Shown: one piece after another, positions 4,868 to 22,506 of the stretch
How positions within the stretch are numbered: position 1 is the stretch's first letter
Layout: each line of letters begins with the position of its first letter
Assembly: GCA_029777335.1 (NCBI GenBank)
Contig: JAKOSN010000037.1
Coordinates: forward strand, 1-46,741
Origin: Planctomycetota bacterium
Lineage (GTDB): Bacteria; Planctomycetota; Planctomycetia; Gemmatales; Gemmataceae
Length of the DNA stretch: 46,741 bases
Direction: 5' to 3'
Notes under the pieces: generated by a model
The model's input: only the letters and a program-made list of their open reading frames with translations
Databases searched by the model: none
What the model was told of the DNA's origin: nothing
Program-made: the position numbers and the translations under genes

Positions 4868-6826
4868 ATGACGACTCTCCCCCTCACCCGGATTGTTCTG
4901 TACAAGCACGGCGTTGGCTACTTCGAACGTGAAGGATCCCTCGAGGGCGACACCCTGCTGCAGCTCACCTTCAAACAGGCGGAGGTGAGCGACGTGTTAA
5001 AATCCCTCACCGTGCTCGATCTCGATGGCGGCCGGGTCGCCTCGGTTTCCTACGATTCCACGCGCCCGCTGGAGCAACTGCTTGGTGACATCGCCCTGTC
5101 CATCCCCGACGAGCAGAGCCTGGTGGGGTTGTTACCGCAGCTCAAGGGAGCGCGCGTCGCGGTGGAATCCGGCACGATGCGCAACGAGGGACTGCTCCTC
5201 GGCATCGACCGCAGCGAACGCCGCAGCGCGGATGGCGTGGTCACCATTGTCCTGCTTTCGCTCTTGAGCGACGAGGGCGAGATTCGCTCCTTCGATCTGC
5301 ATCAACTGGGGAAGGTGGAACTGCTCGATCCGGGATTGCGACGTGATCTCGATTACTACCTGCGCACACACCTTTCGGCCAAGAAGAAGGATGCCCGCAC
5401 CTTCACCTTCTTCGCCCAGGGAGAAGGCAAGCGCAGGGTCCGGCTCAGCTACACCCTGGAGGCGCCAGTGTGGAAGGCGACCTATCGCCTGATTCTTGGC
5501 GGCAAGGATCACCCTCCGCTCATCCAGGGCTGGGCGGTGGTGGACAACACCCAGGATGAGGACTGGGATGAGGTTCACCTGTCGCTGATCGCGGGATTGC
5601 CTGTTTCATTTATGCACGATCTTTATACTCCGCGTTATCTGCGACGTCCCGAGATCAAGGTGGCGGAGACCACGGGCGTTCTCCCCCCAATGCTGGAAGA
5701 AGGCATCCCGGCCGAGTCTGTCGGCGCGGCTCCCTCCCTCCCTGCGATGTGTGTCATGGAACCGCCGAGCGAGGCGCGCCTCCTGCGCGCGGCTCCCTCC
5801 GCAAAAACCTGGGGCAGTTCCGCGCCGGCCCAGGTGCGAGAACGCAAGATCGGCGATCTCTTTGAGTACACCATTGAGCACCCCGTGACGATTCGACGCA
5901 ACCAGTCGGCGCTGGTGCCGATTGTGCTGCGCTCCTTCGAGGGGCGGACCGTTCTCTACTACAACAAGGCGAATCGGGCCGAGAATCCAATGCGCTCGGT
6001 GGAGTTGAAGAACACCACGGGATTGACCCTGGAAGGCGGACCGGTCACCGTGCTCGAAGAAGGCAGCTACGTCGGCGAGGCGATGCTCGACACGCTCCGC
6101 CCCGACGAGGAGCGGCTCGTCCCCTACGCGGTCGAACTGGCGGTTCAGGTGCTCGATAACCTCAATTCTCACCAGGAACATGTGAATCGGATTCTGCTCC
6201 GTAATGGGATTTTGGAGATCCATTTTGCCGATGTACGCACCACCACCTACACGCTGAACAACAAGAGCAAGGAAACGTCCACCGTTTATCTGGAGCATCC
6301 CCGCGCCGCGGCGTATCAACTCTTCGACACCCCGGACCCGCGGGAGATCACCGAGAGTTTCTGGCGGTTTCGTTTCGCGCTCCCCGCCGCATCGGTCACA
6401 CAGTTCGTGGTCAAGGAACGCTCACCCATCCTTCGGCGCTATGGGCTCTCCAGCGAGCTCAATCCGGCCAATTTGGAAATGTGGATCGAGCGCCGCTATG
6501 TCGATGCGCGCAGCCAGGAACAGTTGCGGCAAGCATTGGCGGTGCGCGAAAAGATCGCCACGCTGGAACGAGAGAACCGCCAGCTGCGCGACGAAAACCG
6601 GTCGATTCATGAGGAGCAGGGGCGCATTCGCGGCAATCTGGGCTCGCTGGGAGATCGCTCGGCTGAAAAGGAGTTACGCGATCGCTATGTGCGCACCTTG
6701 AACAACCAGGAAGATCGGCTGGCGGCCATCCAGCGCAACACGGAAGAAAACACAGCCGCCCTCACCTCGCTGCAACAGGAGTTAACCACCTTGCTTGAAC
6801 ATCTCAACTATGAGGTGACGTTCTGA
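4868..6826 (+). CDS. DUF4139-like protein with C-terminal coiled coil
   Basis: A 652-residue protein. The N-terminal block starts RIVLYKHGVGYFER and contains FKQAEVSDVLKSL. The middle contains LEAPVWKATYRLIL, then VVDNTQDEDWDEVHLSLIAG, which matches the pattern of DUF4139 (mucoidy inhibitor A-like) domains: a W-x-A-x-Y strand followed by NxxxEDW. The C-terminal 110 residues are rich in E, R, Q and L in heptad-like spacing (from about YVDARSQEQLRQAL to the end) and should form a coiled coil. No signal peptide or membrane segment is evident. The longer upstream frame overlaps the divergent WD40 gene and looks non-coding, so the ATG at 4868 was used. Function is unknown. Confidence 0.85.
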   Translation: MTTLPLTRIVLYKHGVGYFEREGSLEGDTLLQLTFKQAEVSDVLKSLTVLDLDGGRVASVSYDSTRPLEQLLGDIALSIPDEQSLVGLLPQLKGARVAVESGTMRNEGLLLGIDRSERRSADGVVTIVLLSLLSDEGEIRSFDLHQLGKVELLDPGLRRDLDYYLRTHLSAKKKDARTFTFFAQGEGKRRVRLSYTLEAPVWKATYRLILGGKDHPPLIQGWAVVDNTQDEDWDEVHLSLIAGLPVSFMHDLYTPRYLRRPEIKVAETTGVLPPMLEEGIPAESVGAAPSLPAMCVMEPPSEARLLRAAPSAKTWGSSAPAQVRERKIGDLFEYTIEHPVTIRRNQSALVPIVLRSFEGRTVLYYNKANRAENPMRSVELKNTTGLTLEGGPVTVLEEGSYVGEAMLDTLRPDEERLVPYAVELAVQVLDNLNSHQEHVNRILLRNGILEIHFADVRTTTYTLNNKSKETSTVYLEHPRAAAYQLFDTPDPREITESFWRFRFALPAASVTQFVVKERSPILRRYGLSSELNPANLEMWIERRYVDARSQEQLRQALAVREKIATLERENRQLRDENRSIHEEQGRIRGNLGSLGDRSAEKELRDRYVRTLNNQEDRLAAIQRNTEENTAALTSLQQELTTLLEHLNYEVTF

Positions 6827-9623: not shown

Positions 9624-11342
9624 ATGTCGAACGATGCCCCTTCCTCGGAACCCAAACGCTCAGCAGTCGAGGCGATGAAGGAGACGAGTCGCTATCTGCG
9701 CGGCTCCATCATCGAGACACTCCAGGGCGAGGTCGATCACTTCTCGGATGCCGATAAGAACCTGCTCAAGTTCCACGGCACCTATCAGCAAGAAGATCGC
9801 GATGCGCGCAAGGCCCGCACGCAGGGGGGGGTGCGCAAACATTACATGTTCATGGTGCGCTGCAAGATCCCGGCTGGCCGGGTGACTGCGGACCAGTATC
9901 TGGCTCTGGACGCCATGGCCAGCCAGTATGCCAACGGCACCCTGCGCTTCACCAGTCGCCAGGGGATTCAGTTTCATGGGGTGCTCAAGGGCGACCTGCA
10001 TGGCACCATTGCCGGCATCAATCAGACCCTGCTCACCACCCTGGGCGCCTGTGGCGATGTGGAACGAAACGTGATGGCCTGTCCGGCTCCCGATGCGGAA
10101 GGCTCGGTGCGCCACCAGTTGCAGGAGGCCGCCCGCCTGCTCGCCACCCAGCTGGCGCCACGCACCCGCGCCTACCACGAGATCTGGATTAACGGCCAGG
10201 CGCTGAACAAGGACGAAAGCGAGACGGTCGAACCGCTTTATGGCAAGACCTATCTACCGCGCAAATTCAAAACAGGGTTGGCGTTGCCCGAGGATAACTG
10301 CATTGATGTGTACGCGCAGGACCTGGGTTTGCTGGCCCATGTCCAGGGAGGGCAGATCGTCGGCTACAACGTCCTTGTCGGGGGCGGAATGGGGATGACC
10401 CATGGCAATGCCAACACCTTCCCGTTCATGGCGCGCCCCATCTGCTACACGCGCGCCGAGGACCTGGTGCCCACCGCCGAGGCAGTGATCAAGCTGTTCC
10501 GCGATCATGGCAATCGAGCCGACCGCAAACGGGCGCGCATCAAGTATCTGGTGCACGACTGGGGAGTGGAACGTTTCCGCGCCGTTCTCGCCGAGTATCT
10601 TCCCGGGCCGTTGCAAGCGCCGCTCCCTCTCGAAGTTACTGGCTTCGAGACGCATCTGGGCTGGCATCCCCAGGGCAATGGGAAGTGGTACTACGGGCTC
10701 AGTGTGGAGAACGGCCGGGTCAAGGACGAAGGCACCTTGCGCCTGCGGACCTGTCTGCGCACCCTGGTCCAGCGTTTCCGCCCCGAACTGCGCCTGACCG
10801 CGTTGCAGGATGTTCTGTTGTGCGACCTCCCCGGCACAGCACTTGCCGAGATTAATCGCGTGCTGGAGGAGCATGGGATCACGCCCTCGGAGAAGGTCTC
10901 GCCTGTGCAAAAATACAGCCTGGCGTGCCCGGCAATCCCCACCTGTGGCCTGGCGATTTCCGAGGCCGAACGTGCCTTGCCTCTCATCATTGACGAACTG
11001 GAACTCGAACTGCAGCGTCTGGGATTGAGCGAGATTCCGCTCAGTGTGCGCATGACGGGTTGCCCGAATGGGTGCGTGCGTCCCTATCAGAGCGATATTG
11101 GCATCGTGGGCCGCAGTGGAGACAAGTACACGATCTTTGTCGGCGGCGAGGTGGAGGGACGCCGGCTGAACTTCCTCTACCAGGACCTGGTGCCGCGCGG
11201 CGAGATCGTCGCCGTGCTGCGTCCCCTGCTGGAACGCTTCCGGAGCGAACGCCGGAATGGGGAGCGGTTTGGCGACTGGTGCCAGGCCCATCGTGACGAG
11301 TTGAGCGCGCCAGCTCACGCCCACGCGGCGAGCCCTGCCTAG
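9624..11342 (+). CDS. cysI: Assimilatory sulfite reductase hemoprotein (CysI type)
   Basis: A 572-residue siroheme/4Fe-4S reductase that would take sulfite to sulfide. The first half has KFHGTYQQEDRD and the substrate-binding LRFTSRQGIQFHG; the second half has the cluster cysteines C435 and C441 (ACPAIPTCGLA) and C480 and C484 (TGCPNGCVRPY), the standard four ligands that also bridge to siroheme. Length and TGCPNGC spacing fit CysI better than nitrite reductase. No CysJ flavoprotein is next to it, so the electron donor may be ferredoxin or a distant partner. It is followed after 18 bases by a DUF1499-like gene. The methionine genes metX/metY about 20 kb away would use the sulfide product. Confidence 0.92.
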   Translation: MSNDAPSSEPKRSAVEAMKETSRYLRGSIIETLQGEVDHFSDADKNLLKFHGTYQQEDRDARKARTQGGVRKHYMFMVRCKIPAGRVTADQYLALDAMASQYANGTLRFTSRQGIQFHGVLKGDLHGTIAGINQTLLTTLGACGDVERNVMACPAPDAEGSVRHQLQEAARLLATQLAPRTRAYHEIWINGQALNKDESETVEPLYGKTYLPRKFKTGLALPEDNCIDVYAQDLGLLAHVQGGQIVGYNVLVGGGMGMTHGNANTFPFMARPICYTRAEDLVPTAEAVIKLFRDHGNRADRKRARIKYLVHDWGVERFRAVLAEYLPGPLQAPLPLEVTGFETHLGWHPQGNGKWYYGLSVENGRVKDEGTLRLRTCLRTLVQRFRPELRLTALQDVLLCDLPGTALAEINRVLEEHGITPSEKVSPVQKYSLACPAIPTCGLAISEAERALPLIIDELELELQRLGLSEIPLSVRMTGCPNGCVRPYQSDIGIVGRSGDKYTIFVGGEVEGRRLNFLYQDLVPRGEIVAVLRPLLERFRSERRNGERFGDWCQAHRDELSAPAHAHAASPA

Positions 11343-11360: not shown

Positions 11361-11723
11361 ATGAAGTTTCTTTTTCTCACGATCCGCAATCGCGCCGACC
11401 TCGACGAGGGAGGGACGCCCGAGTTGCAGAATGTGGTTCTTCCGCTCTCCGCCGAGCAAACCGTGGCGCGGTTGCAGGCTGTGGTTCCCGCTCTCCGGGG
11501 CTGGCGTGTGGAGAAGATCGAAGGCGAGCAGATCCATCTGACACGTACCACCCGACTCTGCCGCTTTGTGGACGACATCCACCTGCGCCTGGAGGTGGTC
11601 CCACAGGGAACGCGTTTGCACGGGCACAGCCAGAGTCGTGTTGGCCTGTCGGATCTGGGACAGAATCGCCGCAATCTGCTGGAGTTAGTCCGGGCCCTTC
11701 GTCAATCCGCTGGATCAGCCTGA
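11361..11723 (+). CDS. DUF1499-like protein
   Basis: A 120-residue protein without signal peptide. The C-terminal half carries the DUF1499 pattern: FVDDIHLRLEVVPQGTRLHGHSQSRVGLSDLGQNRRNLLEL, in particular the DD, the SRSR-like SQSRVG and SDLGQN. DUF1499 proteins have no settled function. It begins 18 bases after cysI on the same strand, so it is probably cotranscribed. Its last 22 bases overlap the 3' end of the retron RT gene, which runs the other way. Confidence 0.8.
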   Translation: MKFLFLTIRNRADLDEGGTPELQNVVLPLSAEQTVARLQAVVPALRGWRVEKIEGEQIHLTRTTRLCRFVDDIHLRLEVVPQGTRLHGHSQSRVGLSDLGQNRRNLLELVRALRQSAGSA

Positions 11724-13108
11724 CCCGGATGCTGGAGTGCGCGCGTCAGCGCCTGGCGCAGGGCAGGAGCACGCGGGGGATCGACCATGCACACAAAATC
11801 GACGCGCCCCCTGAGATAGGCGGCAAAATCCGGGTGCTGGTTGCGATTCTGACTCTCCAGCCCGTATTTCGCCACATTATGGAGAATCGCTCGCAATTCG
11901 CGCACCTCCTGGCGCGACACCGTCGGGCGCGTGTTCACCGTGACCCCCGTGACTTCCTGACGCCGGGAGCGACGCATCACCTTCGTTTTGCGCTGGTGTT
12001 CCGTAAACCCCTCGTTTTCCAGGATCGAGCGCACACTGCGCAGGAGTTTCCCCACCGCCGCGGCACGCTCCCCCGAGAAGGTCAGATCGTCGGCATAGCG
12101 TGTGTAGGTGAACCCATGACGGTCCGCGAGCCCTTTCAGGCGTCGATCAAGCCGGCGACATAGCGCGTTGGTGAGAGCAGGACTGGTACACGCCCCCTGG
12201 GGCAACACCCGCTGCCCCAGGGCAACGTGATACATCTTGCCGTCGAATGCGGTCGCCAGGCGGGGCGGTTCGGTCACCAGCAGAGCGAGCACCGTCGCCA
12301 CGTGTTCACTGTAGCCAAGTTTGTGAAAGAGCCCTTTCACCCGGCGAAACGTGACCGAGGGAAAGAAATCCTTCAGATCAAGATTGATCACAAGGGCGCG
12401 GTTGACATGGGGAAGCGCATTGGTTCGCACCGAACGCGCCTTGATGAATCCGTGGGCGGACTGCTCGGGCTCCAGTTTGGCGAGGATGGTATCGAGCACC
12501 CACTGCTGCGCGCGTTTCAAGGCCGGTTTCGGAGCGGAAATATAGCGGACTCCGCCAGTCTTCTTGGCAATGCTGTAACGATGGTAGTGCACCAGGGTCG
12601 CGGACCGTCGATGGTATGTCAGCCAGCGCAGCACCTTCAGCTCGATCCCAAGCAACCCCGCGAGATCGGCGCCCGTGTGCATCACGGGGAGCCCGCGTGC
12701 CTGCAGTTTGGCGACGTCGCTTGCGGTGTGTTGCAATCCGGCGCTGACGCCGGCGCCGGTGTGCACGATCGAGGCGTGGCGAACCACCTCCCAGGCGACC
12801 CGGCGCTGCCGCCGTTCCCGCTCACGTTGTTGCTTGCGCTGAGCGCGCCGTTGCTTGCTCTCCTCCCAGCGGCGTTTGCGTTCGGCGGCCAGCGCGGCGT
12901 CGACGTCCTTGACCGGGGAGCGTTGCGCACAAAGCCGGTCGATTTCATCCTTGATGCGCTGACGCTCGGCGACCTCCTGCGGGGGATCGTGAGGAACCTC
13001 CTGATCGACGGGCCAGAAGCCAAGGAGGCGCATCCGTTCGAGCACTGTTTCGTCGTCGGTGCTCTGCACGATCTGGCGATACAGGCGCGCCTTGTCGTCG
13101 TCGGTCAT
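11702..13108 (-). CDS. Retron-type reverse transcriptase with N-terminal extension
   Basis: A 468-residue reverse transcriptase. The RT core begins near residue 150: RYISAPKP at 188-195, the retron-specific NAxxH motif as NALPH at 230-234, motif A NLDLKDFFPSV with D244, LPQGACTSP at 302-310, the catalytic YADD at 338-341, and the retron VTG motif as VTGVTVN at 386-392. In retrons this enzyme copies part of its own structured RNA into branched msDNA. Residues 1-145 are an unrecognised extension; 77-105 are almost all R, K, E and Q and should form a charged helix. The ATG at 13108 has AAGGGAG upstream. Two msr-msd-like units lie immediately upstream (13136-13616). It is the last gene of the accessory locus and converges on the DUF1499-like gene with a 22-base overlap. 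Confidence is high for the family; the exact retron subtype rests on the neighbours. Confidence 0.95.
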   Translation of the reverse strand: MTDDDKARLYRQIVQSTDDETVLERMRLLGFWPVDQEVPHDPPQEVAERQRIKDEIDRLCAQRSPVKDVDAALAAERKRRWEESKQRRAQRKQQRERERRQRRVAWEVVRHASIVHTGAGVSAGLQHTASDVAKLQARGLPVMHTGADLAGLLGIELKVLRWLTYHRRSATLVHYHRYSIAKKTGGVRYISAPKPALKRAQQWVLDTILAKLEPEQSAHGFIKARSVRTNALPHVNRALVINLDLKDFFPSVTFRRVKGLFHKLGYSEHVATVLALLVTEPPRLATAFDGKMYHVALGQRVLPQGACTSPALTNALCRRLDRRLKGLADRHGFTYTRYADDLTFSGERAAAVGKLLRSVRSILENEGFTEHQRKTKVMRRSRRQEVTGVTVNTRPTVSRQEVRELRAILHNVAKYGLESQNRNQHPDFAAYLRGRVDFVCMVDPPRAPALRQALTRALQHPGQADPAD

Positions 13109-13135
13109 GGCAGGCTCCCTTGGGTTGCGAAGACA

Positions 13136-13367
13136 CAGAGGAAGAAGGAGCGAGGTTTACGAACATCCTGTGGACGTGCTCGTTCCACTGAAGCGGATAT
13201 CCCGGTGGTCGTAGCCCGCGGGATCCGGCGGATCCGACCCAGCGGCGGGCTGACCACCGGGATATCCGCGTGTGACGAACGGGCGCGTGACGAGTGCAAT
13301 GCACGGATGCCTGCACGGCGTAACGCCGTACCAATGGCTAAATCGCTCCGCTCCTCTTCCTCCTCTG
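13136..13367 (-). ncRNA. Retron msr-msd unit A (RT-proximal)
   Basis: A structured RNA on the RT strand. The 5' arm a1 (13367 down to about 13338) pairs with the 3' arm a2 (13160 down to 13136): CAGAGGAGGAAGAGGAGCG against the complement of CAGAGGAAGAAGGAGCG, with small bulges. a1 ends in TTTAGC, the motif expected around the priming guanosine (candidate G at 13338). The msr part has a perfect 6-bp hairpin ACGGCG-TTA-CGCCGT and a GTGC-ATT-GCAC hairpin. The msd part is a long hairpin: 18 perfect pairs (13193-13210 with 13252-13269), a 2-base bulge, 7 more pairs (13213-13219 with 13245-13251), and a loop holding two GGATCC sites. Called from structure and position; msDNA production is not shown. 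Confidence 0.85.
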
Positions 13368-13382
13368 CTTGCCCAGTGATTC

Positions 13383-13616
13383 CAGGGAGAACACCACAGC
13401 GCGGTTTACGAACATCCTGCGGACGTGCCTGTTCCACTGAAGCGGACCCGGCACCTGCCGTAGCGTGCGGGATCCGGCGGATCCGACCCAGCTGCACGCT
13501 GGCAGGTGCCGGGTCCGCGTGTGACGAACGGGCGCGTGACGAGTGCAATGCACGGATGCCTGCACGGCGTAACGCCGTACCGATGGCTAAATCGCTCCGC
13601 TGGGTGCCCTCCCCTA
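13383..13616 (-). ncRNA. Retron msr-msd unit B (second copy)
   Basis: A second copy of the same RNA, 249 bases further from the RT gene. Its a1 arm starts within the stop codon of the SWIM gene (13616-13614) and pairs with a2 (13409 down to 13383): GGGGAGGGCACCCAGCG against the complement of AGGGAGAACACCACAGCG, with two G-U pairs and small bulges. TTTAGC with candidate priming G at 13587, the two msr hairpins and the loop sequence are the same as in unit A. The long hairpin has the same size (18 pairs, 13442-13459 with 13501-13518; bulge; 7 pairs, 13462-13468 with 13494-13500) but a different stem sequence, fully self-complementary. Confidence 0.85.
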
Positions 13617-15305
13617 GTTCAGATCGCCCGGGGCATCCTCGGCCGCCAGGCGCTCCATGTGTGCCAACCGCAGGGCCAGAATGTGCTCACAGGGCCCCTG
13701 CGTCAACTGTTTTTCCTGATAAAACTTGCAAGTACACAAGGCCTCGACCAGGTGTCCTTCCTGATCGACGTGCAGTTGCGGACGGACGCGCTGGCCATCA
13801 AGCCCCTTGGCCGAGCCGCTCAGTTTGTAGCCCCCCGACTCCACGGGACGGCGCGCGATGATCTTGATATCGCCCTTCTCGAAGATCGTCTGGGCGGCGC
13901 GCTCCTGCGGAGTTGCTGGTTTGCGCGCCGCCTTCACCAGCGCGGCCGCCTCCTGCGTCGTGAATGGTTCACGGAACAGATCGCGCTGACGGTAGACGTT
14001 TCCACCCAGATCGAACATGGCCCGTCCAATTTGACAGAGATAAGAGAGTGCACTTCGTGCTTTCTCCAACCCCAGTCCGCTCATCTGGGCCAGGAAGCCC
14101 TCGGTCCCAACGCGCGTGCGTTTCAGGGCATCATAGGTCTGGGTTAATTCACTGGCGGACACATTTAAACGGCGCGTGAGCAGATCAAACTTCGCCCCGC
14201 CAGTCCAGTCGTTATCGGTCCACCCCGAGAGAGCCAGGGTAAAGGTGAGCGGACCCAGATCAAGCACATAGATACTGGGAAGACCAAAACCCGCCAGATA
14301 AACGTCAATCCGCCGGCAGATGGGGAGGAGCCGACCAAGTACCTGCAAGCGATTGCGACCCCAGGTGCGGATGGTTTGCGCCTTCGCCCCGTCGTAGGTT
14401 GTGGTCAGTTCCACCACGTGATTCCACGGCTCAAGGATTACCCGAATGCGCTTCCCTGGTTCCAGCTCATAACGCAGGGCGCGAGGCGATTTGCGCGTTT
14501 TGTAACGTCGCAAATAGCGACAGATGTTGAACAGATCGACCGCAGCCATCGAGAACCTTGTCATCCCCAGCGTCATCGTGCTGTGGACCTGCAAAAAGCC
14601 CATCACCCAGCTTTCCGGAAGATCGATCTTCTTCTCCCTGTGCGTGGTTCCTTCCATCTGCACGCCAAATCCACCGGGAGCGATATCAAAGCGGGTGCGC
14701 CTGTAGCTGCGCATCCGCTCCAGTTCGTTGTGCAGATGCGTGCTAAAATCAATATTCGTGGTTCCGCACTCAAAGGCATCGACTTTTTCAAAGAGGTCGA
14801 AGCGTGCCGCCAACCGGGCATAGGTGCTCTCATCGCGCGAAAACGCCTCGAATGACACCTCGTCGGGATGCACGGTGATTACCGGATCGAGAAGCAACTG
14901 CAGCTCAAATTGATTTTCATAAAGGTAATTAAAATAGTCCATGCGGGCTCGGTGATAGGGCCGCATGCGCTCATTGCGAGCAGCGTTCAACTCGGCCTGG
15001 CGGGCATCCAGGTAAGCCATGCGCTGACGCGCCAATTCGGAACGAAGATTCAAACTGGCAACAAATTTGCGGTCCTGTTCTTCCAGCCAGGCCCAGAACG
15101 CCAGCCGATCGCGCGGACGATACTTGTGATCACTCACCACCACCTGATACAGGGCCGCCAATGCTTCGCGGAAGAGCAGCGGTTGAGCCAGCGTGCCTTG
15201 CAAAAAGGTGGCTTCGCGCAGTCTGTTGGTGGCGAAGGCGACTCGTCCCTCGGACAGACCGTTGACAATGGCACTGCGGCCGGCATATTCCATCTGCAGG
15301 ATCAT
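13614..15305 (-). CDS. Winged-helix/SWIM zinc-finger protein (WHSWIM-like retron partner)
   Basis: A 563-residue protein. The C-terminus has a SWIM zinc finger with C524, C526, C539 and H541 (CTC...GPCEH, the CxCxnCxH pattern), a fold that binds DNA or protein. Before it, around 405-445, LGLEKARSALSYLCQIGRAMFDLGGNVYRQRDLF looks like a winged helix. The N-terminal 400 residues are not recognised. Its ATG overlaps the stop of the HEAT/ARM gene by four bases (ATGA), so the two are translationally coupled, and its own stop codon lies in the a1 arm of msr-msd unit B. This pairing with ARM and RT genes resembles type XIII retrons as I recall them; a nucleic-acid recognition role is inference. Confidence 0.88.
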   Translation of the reverse strand: MILQMEYAGRSAIVNGLSEGRVAFATNRLREATFLQGTLAQPLLFREALAALYQVVVSDHKYRPRDRLAFWAWLEEQDRKFVASLNLRSELARQRMAYLDARQAELNAARNERMRPYHRARMDYFNYLYENQFELQLLLDPVITVHPDEVSFEAFSRDESTYARLAARFDLFEKVDAFECGTTNIDFSTHLHNELERMRSYRRTRFDIAPGGFGVQMEGTTHREKKIDLPESWVMGFLQVHSTMTLGMTRFSMAAVDLFNICRYLRRYKTRKSPRALRYELEPGKRIRVILEPWNHVVELTTTYDGAKAQTIRTWGRNRLQVLGRLLPICRRIDVYLAGFGLPSIYVLDLGPLTFTLALSGWTDNDWTGGAKFDLLTRRLNVSASELTQTYDALKRTRVGTEGFLAQMSGLGLEKARSALSYLCQIGRAMFDLGGNVYRQRDLFREPFTTQEAAALVKAARKPATPQERAAQTIFEKGDIKIIARRPVESGGYKLSGSAKGLDGQRVRPQLHVDQEGHLVEALCTCKFYQEKQLTQGPCEHILALRLAHMERLAAEDAPGDLN

Positions 15306-17839
15306 ACCACCTCTCCCTGCAGAGCCACGCGAGCCGCCACCTCGGGGTACGCCAGTTTCAGGCGCACCAACCCTTCCAGCGCTCGCTCAAAATCGGCTCG
15401 CCCCTGAAAGTACACCACCTCGTGAAGGAGGACACAGGCGGTCTCTGCCTGCGCCGGTTCCTGCAATCCGCGTGCGATCAGCAATTCCACCACCAGCCGC
15501 TTTTCCCGGCGACTCGGCCACAAATCAAAGATCGCCGAGCGGAAAAAGCGGTGTAACTTCCCCAGCGCTTCGGCTCCCGGGGCAAGATGTTCGCTCACCA
15601 GTTCAACCGCGAACCGTCGCATGCGCGGGTGTGGATGCTGCACCAATCGATCGAGCAACTCCGCCGTGGGCCAGCTGGCGAAGTGCTGAATCACCAGTTC
15701 CCGTCCCATCTCCTGCACATCCAGGCGATTGGAATCGAGCAAGCCGACCAGGCCATCCAGCCCCAGTTGCTGGGCGTCGATCTTTGTGCGCAACAGATCG
15801 AAGGCCGCTTGCCGGGTGTCCGCCCATTCGCTTTCGACCAGGATGAACAAACACGAGGGATCACGCTGGAGCCATTCGGCCGCGGCTCGCAACAGATGGT
15901 GAGATGCTGCCCGGACCGCGGCGATTTCATGCTCGGCCAGCAACAACAGCCGTTCGAGTCCCAGTTCCTGCACCGCCTCCGGACGATACCCCAGGAGTTC
16001 GCCCGCCAGCATCTGGGCCGAGGGTGAACCCGAAGTGATCAACGCCAGAAGGGCGGACACACTCGCGAGCGCATTCAGATCTCCCAGCAAGCAGGTGTGC
16101 GCCAGGAGCACCATCCCCGTGTGACTTCCCGCTGTCACTTCCGGTTTTCCCAGCCGATCCAGGATGAGGCGTGCGAGTTCCTGACGCAGTTCCGGCTGTA
16201 CCGCCAGGGTATCGCGTGCCAGGCTAATAATCAGGTCGTGATTTTCGCTGTAGGGCGCTTGCAGAAAAGCCAGAATCTCGTGAGCGGACAGGGTCCACAG
16301 CTGCATCGTTTGGCGCAACCAGCGTCGACCAAGAGTGCGTGTCCTGGCGTTTTCATCACCCAGAAGGAGCGTGAGGAGTTCCCAGTCTGGTTGGTCAGGA
16401 TTGAAACGGCGATCGAGTTCATCCAGGCCGATTTCCACCGTTGGTTGATAGGGGGCGCGCAGCAAGGCCAGGATTTGCGCATGACTGGCGGCCCCGAGAA
16501 TGCTCAGATAGTTTGGGTGCGCCTGAAACGCACGCACGGCGAAATGATGCGCTTCCAGAATCCTCGCCCCACCCAGCACGCGCAGATAGGCCCACGGCTC
16601 CAGATCCCACCACTCCGCGTACGCTGCCTCCACCCGTCCTGTCGGCGGAACCGTGTGCCGCGCACTGCGGTAGCGAAAACGCAGCCGGCGTTCATCGAGG
16701 ACAAAGCGCTCACTCCCCCCCCAGAGAATGCGATGCAACAGATAGCAGGTGCTGTAGGGATCTTCCCCTAGTTGCGCCGGGCCAGCATCCTCGGGGCGAT
16801 AGGCAACCAGCACCTCGGCGGCGGCATGCGGATACTGCTCGGGGCGATGCTGCGCCAGCAGACGCAGATAACGCCACGACAGGCGGCGCATGTACATCTG
16901 CGTTTTCTGGCGAAAGATCCCTGTCTGACGCTGCTTGCCATCGTAACCCGATTTCACCAGTGCCAGCGTCCCGGTGCTGTGCCGGGCTTGCTGATCGATG
17001 GTATAACTGAGCAATCCAAACGTGACAGGGTCATGTCGCAACAGTGCTCGCTTGTAGATACTTTTGACATAACGCCAGACATGCGCCTGGTCGAATTGCA
17101 CCTGCCCCAGTGCCTGGCGCGTGACCTGCACCAGCAAGGGAGTTGCCAGTTCATAAAGCGTATCGAGCGCAAGGCCCAGGTCCTGGTTGGGAAGTTGGCT
17201 GAGTCCATCCAGCAACGATTGAACCGTTTCCGGCTCGCTATTGTCCTCGTCGAGGGTTTCGAGCGCCTGGCGAAGGTTGCCAGGAAGACGTTCCAGCGCT
17301 TGTTGCCGAATCTGAGCCAACCCCTCGGTATCGTTCAAACAACGCAGTGCCTCGACGGCGGAGCGCCGCCGCGAAAGCAATTTGCGCTGGGCGAAGGTGC
17401 GCAGTTCGGGGATGGCTTTGGCATCACCCACCGCGCCCAGGGCATCGAGGAGCGAACAGGTGTCATCGACCGCCTGGGGAAGCCGGGCCAGCAAGGAATC
17501 GACCGCCTCCCGTTGACGTATCCACCCAAGGCGTCCTGCCGCACGGGCGCGCACCCGTGCCTGCGGGCTCTTCAGATCGAGGAGTTGCGCGTGCAGGCCA
17601 GCCTTGAAATAGCCCTCGGTTTTGAGCTGTTCAACCGCCAGGCGCATCTCCTCGTGGATTTCCTCGATGGGAAAGGGCCCCTTGCGCTCGTCCTTGCCCA
17701 GCAGACGACGACGTGGCCCACGGCGAATCCGCAGCCAGTAGGTGTTTGCCTGGCCGGGAACCGCATCGGCAGACACCTCGGCGACCCGATCGACGCCCTG
17801 AGGGTGGTAGAGGCGCACTGGTAGAGGAATGGGAATCAT
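15302..17839 (-). CDS. Large HEAT/ARM-repeat protein (ARM-like retron partner)
   Basis: An 845-residue helical-repeat protein with no signal peptide. Clear HEAT-like pairs are at about 67-190 (SPQARVRARAAGRLGWI, then REAVDSLLARLPQAVDDT, GAVGDAKAIPELRTFAQRK) and at 640-760 (AAVRAASHHLLRAAAEWL, DTRQAAFDLLRTKI, HPRMRRFAVELVSEHL). The middle has unrecognised helical sequence rich in W, Y and R. Such solenoids bind proteins or nucleic acids. It starts three bases after the macro-domain stop and ends in a 4-base overlap with the SWIM gene, so macro, HEAT/ARM and SWIM genes form a tight operon. As a partner of a retron RT it fits the ARM component reported for one retron type (from memory). Confidence 0.88.
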   Translation of the reverse strand: MIPIPLPVRLYHPQGVDRVAEVSADAVPGQANTYWLRIRRGPRRRLLGKDERKGPFPIEEIHEEMRLAVEQLKTEGYFKAGLHAQLLDLKSPQARVRARAAGRLGWIRQREAVDSLLARLPQAVDDTCSLLDALGAVGDAKAIPELRTFAQRKLLSRRRSAVEALRCLNDTEGLAQIRQQALERLPGNLRQALETLDEDNSEPETVQSLLDGLSQLPNQDLGLALDTLYELATPLLVQVTRQALGQVQFDQAHVWRYVKSIYKRALLRHDPVTFGLLSYTIDQQARHSTGTLALVKSGYDGKQRQTGIFRQKTQMYMRRLSWRYLRLLAQHRPEQYPHAAAEVLVAYRPEDAGPAQLGEDPYSTCYLLHRILWGGSERFVLDERRLRFRYRSARHTVPPTGRVEAAYAEWWDLEPWAYLRVLGGARILEAHHFAVRAFQAHPNYLSILGAASHAQILALLRAPYQPTVEIGLDELDRRFNPDQPDWELLTLLLGDENARTRTLGRRWLRQTMQLWTLSAHEILAFLQAPYSENHDLIISLARDTLAVQPELRQELARLILDRLGKPEVTAGSHTGMVLLAHTCLLGDLNALASVSALLALITSGSPSAQMLAGELLGYRPEAVQELGLERLLLLAEHEIAAVRAASHHLLRAAAEWLQRDPSCLFILVESEWADTRQAAFDLLRTKIDAQQLGLDGLVGLLDSNRLDVQEMGRELVIQHFASWPTAELLDRLVQHPHPRMRRFAVELVSEHLAPGAEALGKLHRFFRSAIFDLWPSRREKRLVVELLIARGLQEPAQAETACVLLHEVVYFQGRADFERALEGLVRLKLAYPEVAARVALQGEVV

Positions 17840-17842
17840 GGT

Positions 17843-18571
17843 TTACTCGGCATCATCAAAATCGATCTCGCTGGTCTTGACCGAGGGGGTCGACGGTGGG
17901 GGGGGAGGCGCCTGGAGCGGAGCGGGCCCGCCGATCAGCGTCGCTGGTTTCTTTTTCGGCGTGGGTCCTAGCTCGCCCAGCTCCGCCTCCAGCGCCTGCC
18001 GCATGGAGAGAAAGTCCGGGAACGCCTTTTCACGAAAGAGCTTGTATCCCGTCCACATCAGGTCGGCACAGATCTCGACAGGCACCTTTCCGGTATTGGC
18101 GCCCAGGCCAGGGAGAGCGACCGAGTGAATGCTGCCAGGTTCCCGGGCATTTTGCATGTGCACCGCCTGAAAAGCGGCGGCACAGGCGAGGGCGACATTT
18201 AACGTATCGCTAATATCCTGTTCGGAGAGCGACATCGTGGGTGTGGAGATAAGGAACTTCGGCACGCCGGCGCCGGTGCGCACACACGTCGCATGCCCAA
18301 CCGGCATCACCCCCACATAAAGCCGATCGATCTCTTCCTTGACACGCTTTTGAATCTGCGCGCCAAAATGCTTCTTAATGGCGAGATCAAGACCGCCATC
18401 CATCAATCCGCGTGAATTGGTCGGTGAAACCCACGCATCAACCCCCTGATCAAGCATTGATCCCTGAATAATCTGCACCTCGGGATGAAACTCAAAGGTG
18501 TCCTTCCACGCCTTGATCATCTTTGGATTAATATCCACCAGTACAACCTGAACAGCCAAAGGAGATGACAT
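17843..18571 (-). CDS. Macro-domain protein (ADP-ribose binding)
   Basis: A 242-residue protein with a macro domain at about 30-190. The ADP-ribose-binding loops are visible: DAWVSPTNSRGLMDGGLDLAI at 45-65 (cf. the family DAIVNAAN...GGGVDGAI) and ALPGLGANTGKVP at 152-164. Macro domains bind ADP-ribose and many remove it from proteins or nucleic acids. The tail from about 203 is proline-rich and likely disordered, ending in an acidic patch (DFDDAE). It is the first gene of the tight operon with the HEAT/ARM and SWIM genes and follows the PARP gene across a repeat-rich spacer. A role as eraser, antitoxin or reader of the PARP product is inferred from adjacency. Confidence 0.9.
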   Translation of the reverse strand: MSSPLAVQVVLVDINPKMIKAWKDTFEFHPEVQIIQGSMLDQGVDAWVSPTNSRGLMDGGLDLAIKKHFGAQIQKRVKEEIDRLYVGVMPVGHATCVRTGAGVPKFLISTPTMSLSEQDISDTLNVALACAAAFQAVHMQNAREPGSIHSVALPGLGANTGKVPVEICADLMWTGYKLFREKAFPDFLSMRQALEAELGELGPTPKKKPATLIGGPAPLQAPPPPPSTPSVKTSEIDFDDAE

Positions 18572-18590
18572 GGGGATGCTCCTGGGAGTA

Positions 18591-18836
18591 GTTTTCAGTT
18601 TTCAGTTTTCAGTAAGAGAGTGTTCAGTGTCCAGTAAGAGAGTGTTCAGTTTTCAGTAAGAGTTTTCAGTGTTCAGTAAGAGGTTTCAGTACAGAGTGTT
18701 GAGATGAAAGACACAACATCTCAGCTTCTCCAACATTCGTCTGGGTCCCTTTTCCTCGAATGTCTCTCGTAACCTCAGTGCGAACCCTGAACTCTCTTCC
18801 TGAAAACTCTCTTACTGAAAACTGAAAACTGAAAAC
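18591..18836. repeat. TTTTCAG tracts forming a 31-bp inverted repeat
   Basis: The spacer between the PARP and macro-domain genes is filled with repeats of GTTTTCA and variants (TTCAGTAAGAG, GTGTTCAG). From 18591 to about 18698 they run in one direction; from about 18790 to 18845 they run in the other. The 31 bases at 18591-18621 are the exact reverse complement of 18806-18836, so the transcript can fold into a long hairpin with a ~184-base loop. The right tract runs up to the PARP stop codon. It may act as terminator or processing site, or mark a site of rearrangement; nothing in it decides between these. Confidence 0.85.
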
Positions 18837-18845
18837 TGAAAACTC

Positions 18846-20309
18846 TTACTCCGCCACCTCGACCAGGTATTCGAGACGTTGCTGTTGTGTTGTGTAGACG
18901 ACATACTCGTCGTCGGCGAACTGGGAGGGGTGTTTGCTGGTGTGACGGACGCCGTGACAGCTGTCGTAGCCATCGGGCGGGGCGGTCAGACCGTAGGTGA
19001 TCCTGGTGTATTCCTTCTTTTTCCCCAGCGCGACGCGAGCGATCGCCAGAAAGCGCGTCTTGTAGCGGCCTGGCGAGGCATAGTAGTAGCTTGTGCACGC
19101 GGCATCGCCAAAGTAGATGCCATTGCCCAGCCATCCCGCGTCTGTGCGATTGATCCCCATGCTCACCACAATTTTCGGCAGCAAAATGCCACGCGAAAGG
19201 ATGCCCACCCAGTTTTGAATGCGCGAGCCATGAAAGAGCAAACGCTGATTGTCCAGGTGTTGCGTGAAGGCTTCCCACTCCCCCTTGCGCCGTACGCGAA
19301 AGATATTGCGAACCTCGAGTCGCTTCATCTTGATCAGGCTGTGCGTGACATAATCCTCCAGTTCCAGGAACTGGGGATGGTCCTGCGGGAGCCAATCGAG
19401 TTCGCAACCCAGGGCGTTGTATTCCTGATCGACCTGGGCGTTGAAGAGGACACTGCCACTTTCGCCGTTCACCTGGAGCATGTCCTTCATCAGTTGCAGG
19501 GTATCCTGCTTTTGCTGGAACGCTTCCAGGCTATCGATCACCGCATTGTCCACGGCGCTGCGTGTCCGACCGATGCGATGCGGAATGGCGGTGTAGAACT
19601 CGCCGGATAACCGTTCCATCTCCGGGCGCGAGGTCGCGTTCTGTTGAAAAAGCTCGTAGAGTTCGCCCAGGATCTTTTCGCCCTTCTCGATCTGGCCGAT
19701 GGTCAGAATGCCGAGCGGAGTTTCGATGCCGTTGGCGGTGATGGTGGCCGCCACCGTGGTCGTCAGGGCACGAGTCGCCTCGTCGTAAAGGTAGCGCACC
19801 AGGTTCTGCACGGCGACGTTGAGTTTGCTCGGCTGTATCACCGGAGCAATCTGGCCCTCGCTCGCCTTGATCTTTTCCAGGGTACGCGCATCCACCTGAC
19901 CGCTACTGGTGCCGCGTGCCTTCTGCGAGCCAATCTTGCTCGAAGCGAGCGCGACTTCCTTGTAGCCCTTGCGCGGGGCGGTCTTCTCCCGGTAGATCGA
20001 ATCGTAGTTCGCCTGCGCCTCACCAAGGGTCGCAAAGAAACGGCACTCTTTCTGGCCGGCGTCGGGGTTGCTGTTGAGATCGTCGGTGCGACCGTAATGG
20101 GTAAAGACACGGTAGCAATCGGCGCCGTTGTGCGTCCCCTTGTGCAGTTCAATGGCGTAATACTTGTTGTGGTTGCTCTTGATGTCCGTCACCTGCAGGA
20201 CCGCCTTCTTGACGATCTCAAAGTCATCCGGGAAGAAGGGAGCGCTGGGATCGCCATACTTCCACGCCTTGATTGCTGCCATGATGACCTCGTTCTCGGT
20301 GACATCCAT
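18846..20309 (-). CDS. WGR-domain poly(ADP-ribose) polymerase (PARP1/2-like)
   Basis: A 487-residue protein built like the C-terminal part of eukaryotic PARP1/2. A WGR domain lies at about 41-118 (KYYAIELHKG, RVFTHYGRTDD, FFATLGEAQANY). A helical regulatory domain follows at about 155-290 (PLGILTIGQIEKGEKIL). The catalytic ADP-ribosyltransferase domain has the H-Y-E triad: LLFHGSR with H360, GNGIYFGD with Y399, and DEYVVY with E468. It would use NAD+ to ADP-ribosylate protein or nucleic acid, and WGR domains in PARP2 sense DNA ends. The frame is open to 20441 but the first 44 codons look non-coding; ATG 20309 was chosen, and ATG 20282 (with GAGG upstream) is the alternative. It is upstream of the macro-domain gene on the same strand. 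Confidence 0.9.
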   Translation of the reverse strand: MDVTENEVIMAAIKAWKYGDPSAPFFPDDFEIVKKAVLQVTDIKSNHNKYYAIELHKGTHNGADCYRVFTHYGRTDDLNSNPDAGQKECRFFATLGEAQANYDSIYREKTAPRKGYKEVALASSKIGSQKARGTSSGQVDARTLEKIKASEGQIAPVIQPSKLNVAVQNLVRYLYDEATRALTTTVAATITANGIETPLGILTIGQIEKGEKILGELYELFQQNATSRPEMERLSGEFYTAIPHRIGRTRSAVDNAVIDSLEAFQQKQDTLQLMKDMLQVNGESGSVLFNAQVDQEYNALGCELDWLPQDHPQFLELEDYVTHSLIKMKRLEVRNIFRVRRKGEWEAFTQHLDNQRLLFHGSRIQNWVGILSRGILLPKIVVSMGINRTDAGWLGNGIYFGDAACTSYYYASPGRYKTRFLAIARVALGKKKEYTRITYGLTAPPDGYDSCHGVRHTSKHPSQFADDEYVVYTTQQQRLEYLVEVAE

Positions 20310-20430
20310 CGTCTGGGGGAAGTGCAAGAGACGATGGTTCCTGTAGTTTGTCGGAACTCGCTCGTCTCTTGCCCAGTCATGAACGAAAGAATACCATCCC
20401 CCTGAGCAAGGCAACAGGTCAGCAGTACGA

Positions 20431-22506
20431 CTATTTTTCAACGGTGAGCAGGATGGGTTCGCTGGAGTAACTGACCTTCACCACGAAGTTGATGGACACG
20501 TGCGTGAGCACACTGAGCGGGACGTTTTCGATGGGGGCCGCGTTGGGAGCCGCCTTGAGCACAAGATGTCCCTTTGAGGCCGTTCCCAGCAGCGTTTTGC
20601 TCTTCCCCTCGACAATGGTTACCCCCGGTGGAAGGGGATTGCCATAGACGCTCCCCAGATGGCGAAGCAGAATGTCCAACGAGATGGGCTTGTTGTAATC
20701 GGCGCGCCGCACCACGTTCACTTCGAGTTTCACTTCCTGGCCGGGTTTGAGGCGAATTTGCCGGGGAGTTACATCCACCTTGAGGATATCCGAGGGGAGG
20801 GTGACCGCCACCGTTTGCATCTCCACATCGAAGCGCCCGCGGCCTCCGCCGGGGAGATAGATTTCCTGGTTGGGAGTGACTGCGCGCGTGAGAGTGGTCG
20901 ACTTGCCCTCGGCGCCCTTCCACGTTGCCGTTCCGGTGATCGTCACATTGCTCACCCCCAGCGGCGCCTGGGCGTTGGCAGTCAGCACCACCACCCCCTG
21001 CGTCATGGTGGGGGGAATGGTCAATGGGCTGGCGGTCACGCCCCTGGGGAGATTTTTGATCTCGATTGTCACTGGTTCCTGAAATCCGTTAACGCGCGTC
21101 ACATGCACAAACCAGGCAGCACTCGAACCGGGGCCGATCATCGCCTTGTCTGGATCGCAGCGCAGCGTGAAATCCGGGGTGGCCCAGTCCAGTTCGAGAA
21201 AGTAAACCGCGCTCGGGGCGCCCTTGCTGTTGAGATCCCGAATGCGAATCACATAGTCGAGATCGGCGGGCGGAGTGAAGACCAGGCCCGGATCCTTGCC
21301 ATAGGTATCATCGCTGCTGGCGAGCACCTTGCCGTCGAGGGTGAGGATATCGAGCACGCCATCGAGGCTCGATTGGAGCACCGTCCCAAACCGGCGCGCG
21401 TGCATCTCCATGCGGATCGCCTTCCCCTTCGTCCCCTTGAAGACAAAGTGATCCAGCTCGCGCGGGGTGGCAATTCGCCCATTGATCCCGCACGGCACCT
21501 GGACGCGCTGCGCCTGCTTTGGTGTGTCGTTGGGTTCCTGCTCCAGCACCTGCGGGAGTTCGCTCACCATCAGCGCGGTCCGGTTGGTCGGTTTGCCCTT
21601 GATCTGGAGCGGCACCTCGTGCAGACCGAGTTCCCTGGGAGCAGTCAAGGCGACACGGGCTTGCACCAGGCTGGCAGAGCCGACGGGTTCAACCTGCACG
21701 GTTTGTCCGGGCGCGACCGCCAGAGGATACAGGTGGGAGACATAAGGAGCGCTGGTGAGAGCCAGGGCATACACCCAGCGCGGATCGCCATCGTACTTGG
21801 AGTCACGTACCTGGATGTAATAGGTGCCGGCCCTGGTGAAAGTGTAGCTCAGCAGGGGATCGGCGAAGTAGAAATCGTCGTTGTCCGCCAACTCCCGCCC
21901 GGTCGCATCGAAGAGAGTGAGCTTGGGATCGAGGTGCTTTTGCAGATCGTGAATCTTGTCTTCCAGGCGCGCCCCCTGGACCTCAAAGGTGAGCGTTTGC
22001 CCGGCCTGCACCTCGAAAGCGTAGTAATCGACATCCTCGGCCAGTTCCACTCGGCCACTCACCACGCAGGGAACGGGAACCTTTGTCGCCTTTTCCAGAG
22101 TGTTATTCTCGGCTTTTTCCTCGATCACCGGATCGTCCACCACCAGAATCTGGCCAATGCTGGACAATCCGAGAGAAGAGACCAGGCGAAAGTCGCGCAC
22201 GCCGGGAGCAGCATCGGCGGCCACCGTGAGCTTCACCTTGACGCTGCGCACCGGGGTGGCAGGGATGGGCCCGCTTGGAGGAGTCGCAGGGAGCCCCTCT
22301 GCCTTGATCCCCGTTCCCTGAAAGAGCGCGTGATAGACGCCGAAGAAGTTTTGCTGCCCCTGAACGAGCACCTCCGTGGTTTTGCCGCGCTGAACGGCGA
22401 CCGGGGTGGTGTGGGTGATCATCGGGTACGAGGTCTGGGCGTGGAGGAGCGAACCAAGGGTGAGCAGAAGGGCCGTGGGGAGAACAAGGCGGGTGAGAGT
22501 ACGCAT
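20431..22506 (-). CDS. Exported protein with PPC-type domains
   Basis: A 691-residue protein with a signal peptide (MRTLTRLVLPTALLLTLGSLLHAQ). The mature part contains at least two bacterial pre-peptidase C-terminal (PPC)-like beta-sandwiches: EDVDYYAFEVQAGQTLTFEVQ with DPKLTLFDATGRELADNDD, and RELDHFVFKGTKGKAIRMEM with DGVLDILTLDGKVLASSDD. More beta-rich, immunoglobulin-like repeats follow. No protease motif is seen. Proteins of this design are typical of planctomycetes and are exported or cell-surface. The upstream extension of the frame lacks a signal peptide, so the ATG at 22506 was chosen. Its stop lies 121 bases before the PARP start. Confidence 0.85.
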   Translation of the reverse strand: MRTLTRLVLPTALLLTLGSLLHAQTSYPMITHTTPVAVQRGKTTEVLVQGQQNFFGVYHALFQGTGIKAEGLPATPPSGPIPATPVRSVKVKLTVAADAAPGVRDFRLVSSLGLSSIGQILVVDDPVIEEKAENNTLEKATKVPVPCVVSGRVELAEDVDYYAFEVQAGQTLTFEVQGARLEDKIHDLQKHLDPKLTLFDATGRELADNDDFYFADPLLSYTFTRAGTYYIQVRDSKYDGDPRWVYALALTSAPYVSHLYPLAVAPGQTVQVEPVGSASLVQARVALTAPRELGLHEVPLQIKGKPTNRTALMVSELPQVLEQEPNDTPKQAQRVQVPCGINGRIATPRELDHFVFKGTKGKAIRMEMHARRFGTVLQSSLDGVLDILTLDGKVLASSDDTYGKDPGLVFTPPADLDYVIRIRDLNSKGAPSAVYFLELDWATPDFTLRCDPDKAMIGPGSSAAWFVHVTRVNGFQEPVTIEIKNLPRGVTASPLTIPPTMTQGVVVLTANAQAPLGVSNVTITGTATWKGAEGKSTTLTRAVTPNQEIYLPGGGRGRFDVEMQTVAVTLPSDILKVDVTPRQIRLKPGQEVKLEVNVVRRADYNKPISLDILLRHLGSVYGNPLPPGVTIVEGKSKTLLGTASKGHLVLKAAPNAAPIENVPLSVLTHVSINFVVKVSYSSEPILLTVEK

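Follow-up and report, generated by a model that had tools for sequence, protein, structure and literature searches.

A predicted type XIII retron in which one reverse transcriptase is preceded by two msr-msd units with different stems

To our knowledge, retrons are normally described with one template per reverse transcriptase (RT); their msDNA is joined to the template RNA at a branching guanosine. In the stretch of planctomycete DNA analysed here (46,741 nucleotides, hereafter the window) a retron RT is preceded by two direct repeats that have the form of msr-msd templates, nearly identical outside the long msd stem and different within it. Does one RT serve both templates, and how did the stems come to differ? 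We consider it probable that the window holds a type XIII retron whose single RT is preceded by two complete templates, predicted to give two msDNAs that likely act as two sensors for one effector set.

Two template units in a type XIII retron locus

The features of the locus are as follows; R1 is a covariance model described below.

11702..13108, minus strand: retron RT, type XIII, 468 aa (PADLOC RT_XIII, E 2.1e-169; Pfam RVT_1, E 7.4e-22)
13131..13148, minus strand: unit 1 a2 extension, end approximate (fold; own versus sister pairing)
13149..13352, minus strand: msr-msd unit 1, RT-proximal, 204-nt core (direct repeat; exact comparison; R1 match 13158-13349, 38.3 bits, E 1.7e-7)
13193..13219, minus strand: unit 1 msd stem, 3' arm, 27 nt including a 2-nt bulge (exact comparison)
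13245..13269, minus strand: unit 1 msd stem, 5' arm, 25 nt, 18 + 7 bp (exact comparison)
13353..13370, minus strand: unit 1 a1 extension, end approximate (fold, pairs with 13131-13148; own pairing stronger than sister pairing)
13382..13397, minus strand: unit 2 a2 extension, end approximate (fold; own versus sister pairing)
13398..13601, minus strand: msr-msd unit 2, SWIM-proximal, 204-nt core (direct repeat; exact comparison; R1 match 13407-13598, 40.0 bits, E 6.4e-8)
13442..13468, minus strand: unit 2 msd stem, 3' arm (exact comparison)
13494..13518, minus strand: unit 2 msd stem, 5' arm (exact comparison)
13602..13616, minus strand: unit 2 a1 extension, end approximate, touching the SWIM stop codon (fold; own versus sister pairing)
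13614..15305, minus strand: SWIM zinc-finger protein of type XIII retrons, 563 aa (PADLOC SWIM_XIII, E 5.1e-183; Pfam SWIM)
15302..17839, minus strand: HEAT-repeat protein of type XIII retrons, 845 aa (PADLOC WGR_XIII, E 1e-109, and HEAT-ARM_XIII, E 6.2e-67; Pfam HEAT_2)
17843..18571, minus strand: macro-domain protein, candidate operon member (Pfam Macro; same place in L147 and L149)
18846..20441, minus strand: WGR-PARP protein, candidate operon member (Pfam PARP, PARP_reg and WGR; same place in L147, 66% identity, and L149, 71%)

The RT fits the type XIII clade, since RT_XIII is matched with E 2.1e-169 versus 1e-111 for the next best PADLOC model, RT_other, and a SWIM protein adjoins it as expected of this type. 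Its translation contains YADD, which we take to be the catalytic motif, and VTG, to whose meaning the same assumption applies. Along the minus strand the genes and units run PARP, macro, HEAT, SWIM, unit 2, unit 1, RT. With the type XIII retron as defined in PADLOC the window shares the RT, the SWIM protein, a HEAT-type protein and the placing of template units between SWIM and RT; it differs by having two templates per RT, by the PARP and macro genes in the row, and by its HEAT protein, which matches WGR_XIII and HEAT-ARM_XIII yet has no Pfam WGR domain, this domain sitting instead on the PARP protein two genes upstream. The order PARP-macro-HEAT-SWIM is kept in two relatives (L147 in genome G018, L149 in G038), and the first two genes may therefore be part of this type XIII branch, possibly as an ADP-ribosylation arm (17843-20441). 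In G018 SWIM is followed by one unit and then the RT; in G038 the contig breaks off within SWIM, the RT being on a different contig. A nitrite/sulfite reductase-like gene (Pfam; 9624-11342) adjoins the retron on the opposite strand.

The initial annotation, made from the sequence alone, had described the two repeats as working msr-msd RNAs with compensated stem differences, and a recount gives exactly its figures. A repeat search returns two direct repeats 249 bases apart, each with one 37-nt inverted repeat. Outside the stem the 204-base units differ at 6 of 154 positions; inside it 12 of 25 pairs differ, all 12 being changed on both arms, so that in either unit all 25 pairs are Watson-Crick (18 + 7, with the same two-base bulge on the 3' arm), and a GGATCC-bearing loop is common to both. 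The a1/a2 extensions, which had been said to differ between the units and to be self-complementary in each, are indeed unlike between units 1 and 2 and paired within each, as judged both by the fold and by comparing own with sister pairing. Folds around the units (240 and 232 nt) each reach z -7.4 against dinucleotide shuffles, none of 200 shuffles being as good. A TTTAGC motif after a1 is a candidate for the site of the branching guanosine. No family reached its gathering score in an Rfam scan of the whole window.

A covariance model was obtained from relatives. Same-family genomes were searched with the RT and 80 stretches were fetched; an alignment (A1) of 21 units from 16 loci in 16 genomes gave the model R1, from which the window sequence was excluded and in whose training set one unit (L053) comes from another contig of the window's own genome. 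The fold of A1 has 55 predicted pairs, 36 of them having changed at both partners. In either window unit the R1 match covers all 185 model positions (40.0 and 38.3 bits; E about 1e-7). Moreover, when each a1 was paired with its own a2 and with that of a sister unit in the same locus, own pairing was the stronger in 56 of 56 ordered tests. The arrangement of a retron ncRNA, lying upstream of the RT with its a1/a2, its msr and its msd hairpin, is thus found by the folds, by R1 and by a1/a2 pairing, and the claim of two msr-msd units beside one RT is supported, given also the flanking type XIII proteins and the relatives with several units described below.

It might be that only one unit is used, the other being a spare, a decaying copy or a repeat regulating the operon, such as a terminator or attenuator between SWIM and RT. 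Long hairpins in an intergenic gap would suit this, as would degraded units elsewhere (L132, L134). However, both window units retain the full stem, the msr and their own a1/a2, complete units also occur upstream of SWIM and elsewhere, and conservation extends beyond the hairpin to loops and msr, and we regard this explanation as improbable.

Unit number and position in related genomes

The initial annotation had held that one RT making two msDNAs with different stems would be new. The window is not a one-off case, since R1 has at least two matches in 21 of the 28 same-family genomes with any match and at least three in 12 (lower bounds). In 95 same-family genomes R1 matched at least 28, with at least 69 matches in all and 7 in the genome with the highest count (again a lower bound); the single-contig genome G008 has seven. 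In a class-wide scan at least 67 of 397 genomes were matched, and of 39 outside the family at least 3 had two matches. These counts are lower bounds because at most 27 candidates were scored per genome in the 95-genome run and at most 6 in the 397-genome run; both runs missed the window's own weaker units. R1 also misses the window-like single unit of G018, which BLAST finds, so for the window-like subtype R1 counts are lower bounds in any case.

The closest RT clade comprises 30 RT matches (E up to 1.3e-99), 25 of them with SWIM on the same contig (L033, L041, L053, L056 and L061 were left out). By R1, counting matches of at least 50 bits except for the window (two weaker matches) and G018 (BLAST), the 25 loci carry three units in 4 cases, two in 12, one in 7 and none in 2; the count leaves aside a truncated second match at the contig end of L039, and L057 stops just short of SWIM. 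Thus 16 of 25 loci, window included, have two or three units, and several of these lie in genomes of 1-4 contigs. Units stand before SWIM, between SWIM and RT, or in both places; in G050, for example, a tandem pair precedes SWIM. Outside the family, 20 stretches were fetched from 19 of the 39 genomes, and of these 16 have both RT and SWIM, with one unit in 14 and two in 2; L166 (SWIM only) and L167, L178 and L179 (RT only) were left out, L178 having a second, weaker match. One of the two-unit loci (L162 in G276, of another family) has a tandem pair between SWIM and RT in the same layout as the window; its units agree at 110 of 115 flank positions and 9 of 21 stem positions, with arms 21/21 and 20/21 complementary, and on this comparison it is an independent case like the window.

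R1 also matches a unit on a Methylobacterium bullatum plasmid (L182 6735-6925, 47.7 bits) between SWIM and RT, which indicates that the system crosses phyla. The record of this plasmid lists no feature at its single R1-type unit. A plasmid search with the window repeat gave no match, and a contig scan of the genome collection with the window RT found no relative. In a second SWIM-RT clade, with RTs about 42-45% identical (L068, L070, L071, L074, L075, L079, L091 and others), R1 has no match at E 0.1. Long hairpins of CACAGAGG-like repeats are present around the RT start in this clade (L068, L070 and others); they are possibly its template RNA, or else a common repeat.

Units also occur by themselves. 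At 19 fetched loci 21 units have no RT or SWIM match within the stretch, up to about 5 kb on each side (short extra fragments in L132 and L134 are left out of this count); some of these stretches stop at contig ends (e.g. L114, L116, L124, L135), and the gene could be situated past the end. Within genus g17 and certain other genera the solitary units stand beside the same genes across several genomes (L114, L116, L118, L120, L123, L132, L133, L134; L113, L115, L117, L122; L124, L128, L135). The units of L132, which is the solitary locus of G102, and of L134 are visibly degraded, that of L132 outside the stem. At L125 of G008 (5201-5874) three tandem units have three different stems, and neither RT nor SWIM is matched for about 5 kb around. 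Solitary units would be either used in trans by an RT or relics. Elsewhere in the window's own genome the components are found apart: on contig C216 (L137) two units accompany SWIM, the fetched sequence giving no match to an RT, and on contig C49 (L136) one unit accompanies an RT, with SWIM unmatched over the stretch taken. This is possibly a split system or an effect of assembly.

Units scattered away from RT genes, as in a REP-like repeat, had been named as evidence against the retron reading. Such units exist in relatives, as just described, but they are few per genome and many stand beside the same genes in several genomes, so that they are not REP-like in look; in the whole of the window's own genome the 88-nt conserved part occurs at 2 places. 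A related explanation, that a hairpin family of low copy number, mobile or retrocopied, merely happens to lie beside the RT, has been proposed for the msDNA-like repeats of Nannocystis. Retron-Nex1 (Ne160) of Nannocystis exedens is reported to have duplicated msr-msd repeats with no RT within a kilobase (PMC6868368); it shares with the present case more than one msr-msd copy per genome and copies without an RT nearby, whereas the window units differ by the adjoining RT and SWIM, by their own a1/a2 and by compensated stem differences. The solitary units fit this explanation, and in 7 of the 20 scored, own a1 and a2 pair about as weakly as those of unrelated units (mean -23.3 kcal/mol, sd 7.8); equally weak pairing is seen in two units whose loci do have SWIM or RT (in L137 and L138). 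Against it, the other 13 pair their own a1 and a2 clearly (at -29 kcal/mol or stronger), and a copy derived from cDNA would lack such pairing; besides the shared neighbours, the number of R1 matches is at the highest 7 per genome (a lower bound), and copies of the window type number two in its own genome, a third match there being the hairpin read on its reverse strand. We find this explanation very hard to credit.

Divergence of the msd stem

The initial annotation had further suggested that the stem is under pressure to diversify. In 30 pairs of units from the same locus (solitary rows included) stem identity is below 0.6 in 27, the exceptions being one pair each in L142 (0.72), L138 (0.67) and L180 (0.96), and flank identity is above 0.75 in 29, the exception being L137 (0.71); the loop of one L045 unit contains two unread bases. 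Stem difference within a locus is not required, since the two stems of L180 are identical at 25 of 26 pairs, the single changed pair being compensated.

Taken singly, the window pair could have arisen by compensated drift. Duplication followed by such drift would mean that both units work and are kept for dosage, the stem needing only to be a perfect duplex and its sequence drifting freely while the RT holds the remainder constant. The flanks of the window units are about 4% different, and the units could thus be old enough for many paired changes, so that this pair is by itself insufficient to prove pressure to diversify. Likewise, L040b and L058b have 106 of 111 flank positions identical (95-96%), yet their 4-fold degenerate sites are about 64% identical, and L180 looks like a young duplicate with one compensated pair change out of 26.

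Close relatives speak against drift as the general explanation. Stems at matching positions were compared against the identity of 4-fold degenerate sites in RT and SWIM; shuffled arms are 30% identical (sd 10%). Among G100, G101 and G102 the following identities were found.

G100/G101 (4-fold 85%): unit 1 7/22, unit 2 22/22, unit 3 3/19, solitary unit 9/22
G100/G102 (4-fold 80%): unit 1 22/22, unit 2 11/21, unit 3 8/22, solitary unit 21/22
G101/G102 (4-fold 77%): unit 1 7/22, unit 2 11/21, unit 3 4/19, solitary unit 10/22

Of these 12 comparisons, 3 have 21-22 of 22 positions identical and 9 have 3-11 of 19-22, that is, stems of which roughly half or more has been altered beside unchanged neighbours, a mixture that drift does not predict; the flanks of the RT-proximal unit 3, which include another helix, are identical at 109-110 of 111 positions in all three genomes. 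Conversely, even where 4-fold identity between genomes is down to 54-61%, some stems are kept at 17-21 of 22 positions without gaps (unit 3 among G042, G102 and G108; unit 2 of G042 with G100 and G101), which is too conserved for free sites and is as expected if the stem sequence matters. Intermediate changes also occur, namely 15/22 in unit 2 of G107/G104, and in unit 2 of G102 versus G100 and G101, where 11/21 ungapped becomes 16/21 with gaps. Long stasis in some stems, together with changes at half or more of the positions in neighbouring ones in close relatives, favours block replacement over drift. These alignments suggest that stems probably change by replacement of blocks more than pair by pair, and replacement of a stem that matters fits the stasis and the abrupt changes better than free drift, which we consider rather unlikely as the whole explanation.

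In the window, the outer stem of unit 2 is identical to that of the G018 unit at 13 of 18 positions and that of unit 1 at 8 of 18; from this faint likeness, perhaps unit 1 rather than unit 2 received a new stem.

Predicted mechanism, known retrons and stem sequence

Retrons studied so far keep an effector in check through the RT-msDNA complex, which a phage factor then disturbs, and the msDNA of Eco8 is described as the sensor of phage SSB; the same paper states that variation in sequence is tolerated and calls the link between sequence and specificity unclear (PMC13158370). At the present locus synthesis by the RT would begin close to where a1 ends and turn the msd into a DNA hairpin, so that two templates would place two different hairpins on the same guard. 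The RT-msDNA complex would control the SWIM and HEAT proteins, and perhaps the PARP and macro proteins, as in studied retrons. The stem sequence may help to set what triggers release, and its exchange would then change specificity while the contacts of the RT stay fixed; the conservation of msr, loop and flanks suggests such fixed contacts. Stem blocks could be swapped by recombination between units or strains through the conserved flanks, although this is a guess. From the comparisons given above, one RT with a predicted role in phage defence likely makes several different msDNAs whose stems are exchanged as blocks. More tentatively, type XIII retrons may be multi-template systems in which one RT serves a repertoire of units, nearby and elsewhere, and in which the stem is an exchangeable cassette setting the phage factor that is sensed, kept for long and then replaced whole, which would make it a module of specificity built from reverse-transcribed DNA; this extension is possible, and we hold it with low confidence.

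The retrons Eco1 (also known as Ec86) and Eco8 have a single ncRNA and share with the present loci the a1/a2, the msr, the msd hairpin and the RT; they are normally described with one template per RT, whereas the present loci have two or three that differ in their stems. Neither multiple templates for one retron RT nor swapped msd stems were reported among the literature listed (titles and abstract openings, a set apart from the main retron classification and census papers), and as far as this scope reaches several templates with different stems are a new variant. A natural swap has seemingly been run, with one RT, near-identical flanks and different stems in a single locus, and close relatives supply the same position with kept or changed stems, so that the role of the stem is directly testable by comparing the units of one locus. 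If one RT takes many stems, it could also serve to make several DNAs simultaneously.

As to where the stems come from, copying from other DNA of the same genome was considered and rejected: the 18-nt stem parts of the window have no other match there at 0-1 mismatch, and at 2 mismatches match only 2 and 3 places. Neither the 21-nt stem arms of the window nor the 17-nt loop of relatives has an exact match among the viral contigs searched, although phages outside this set may carry one. The idea that stems carry restriction sites was likewise dropped, since 6-base palindromes are not enriched (25 versus 28.6 expected in 61 distinct arms). In the same 61 arms gapped dyad symmetry is counted 233 times versus 198.6 (sd 7.4), a value reached in none of 1000 shuffles; the shuffles were of single bases, the arms share ancestry, and trimming by a fixed 4 nt damaged some arms of the window type. 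Seen against this weak control, the gapped dyad symmetry resembles that of protein operators.
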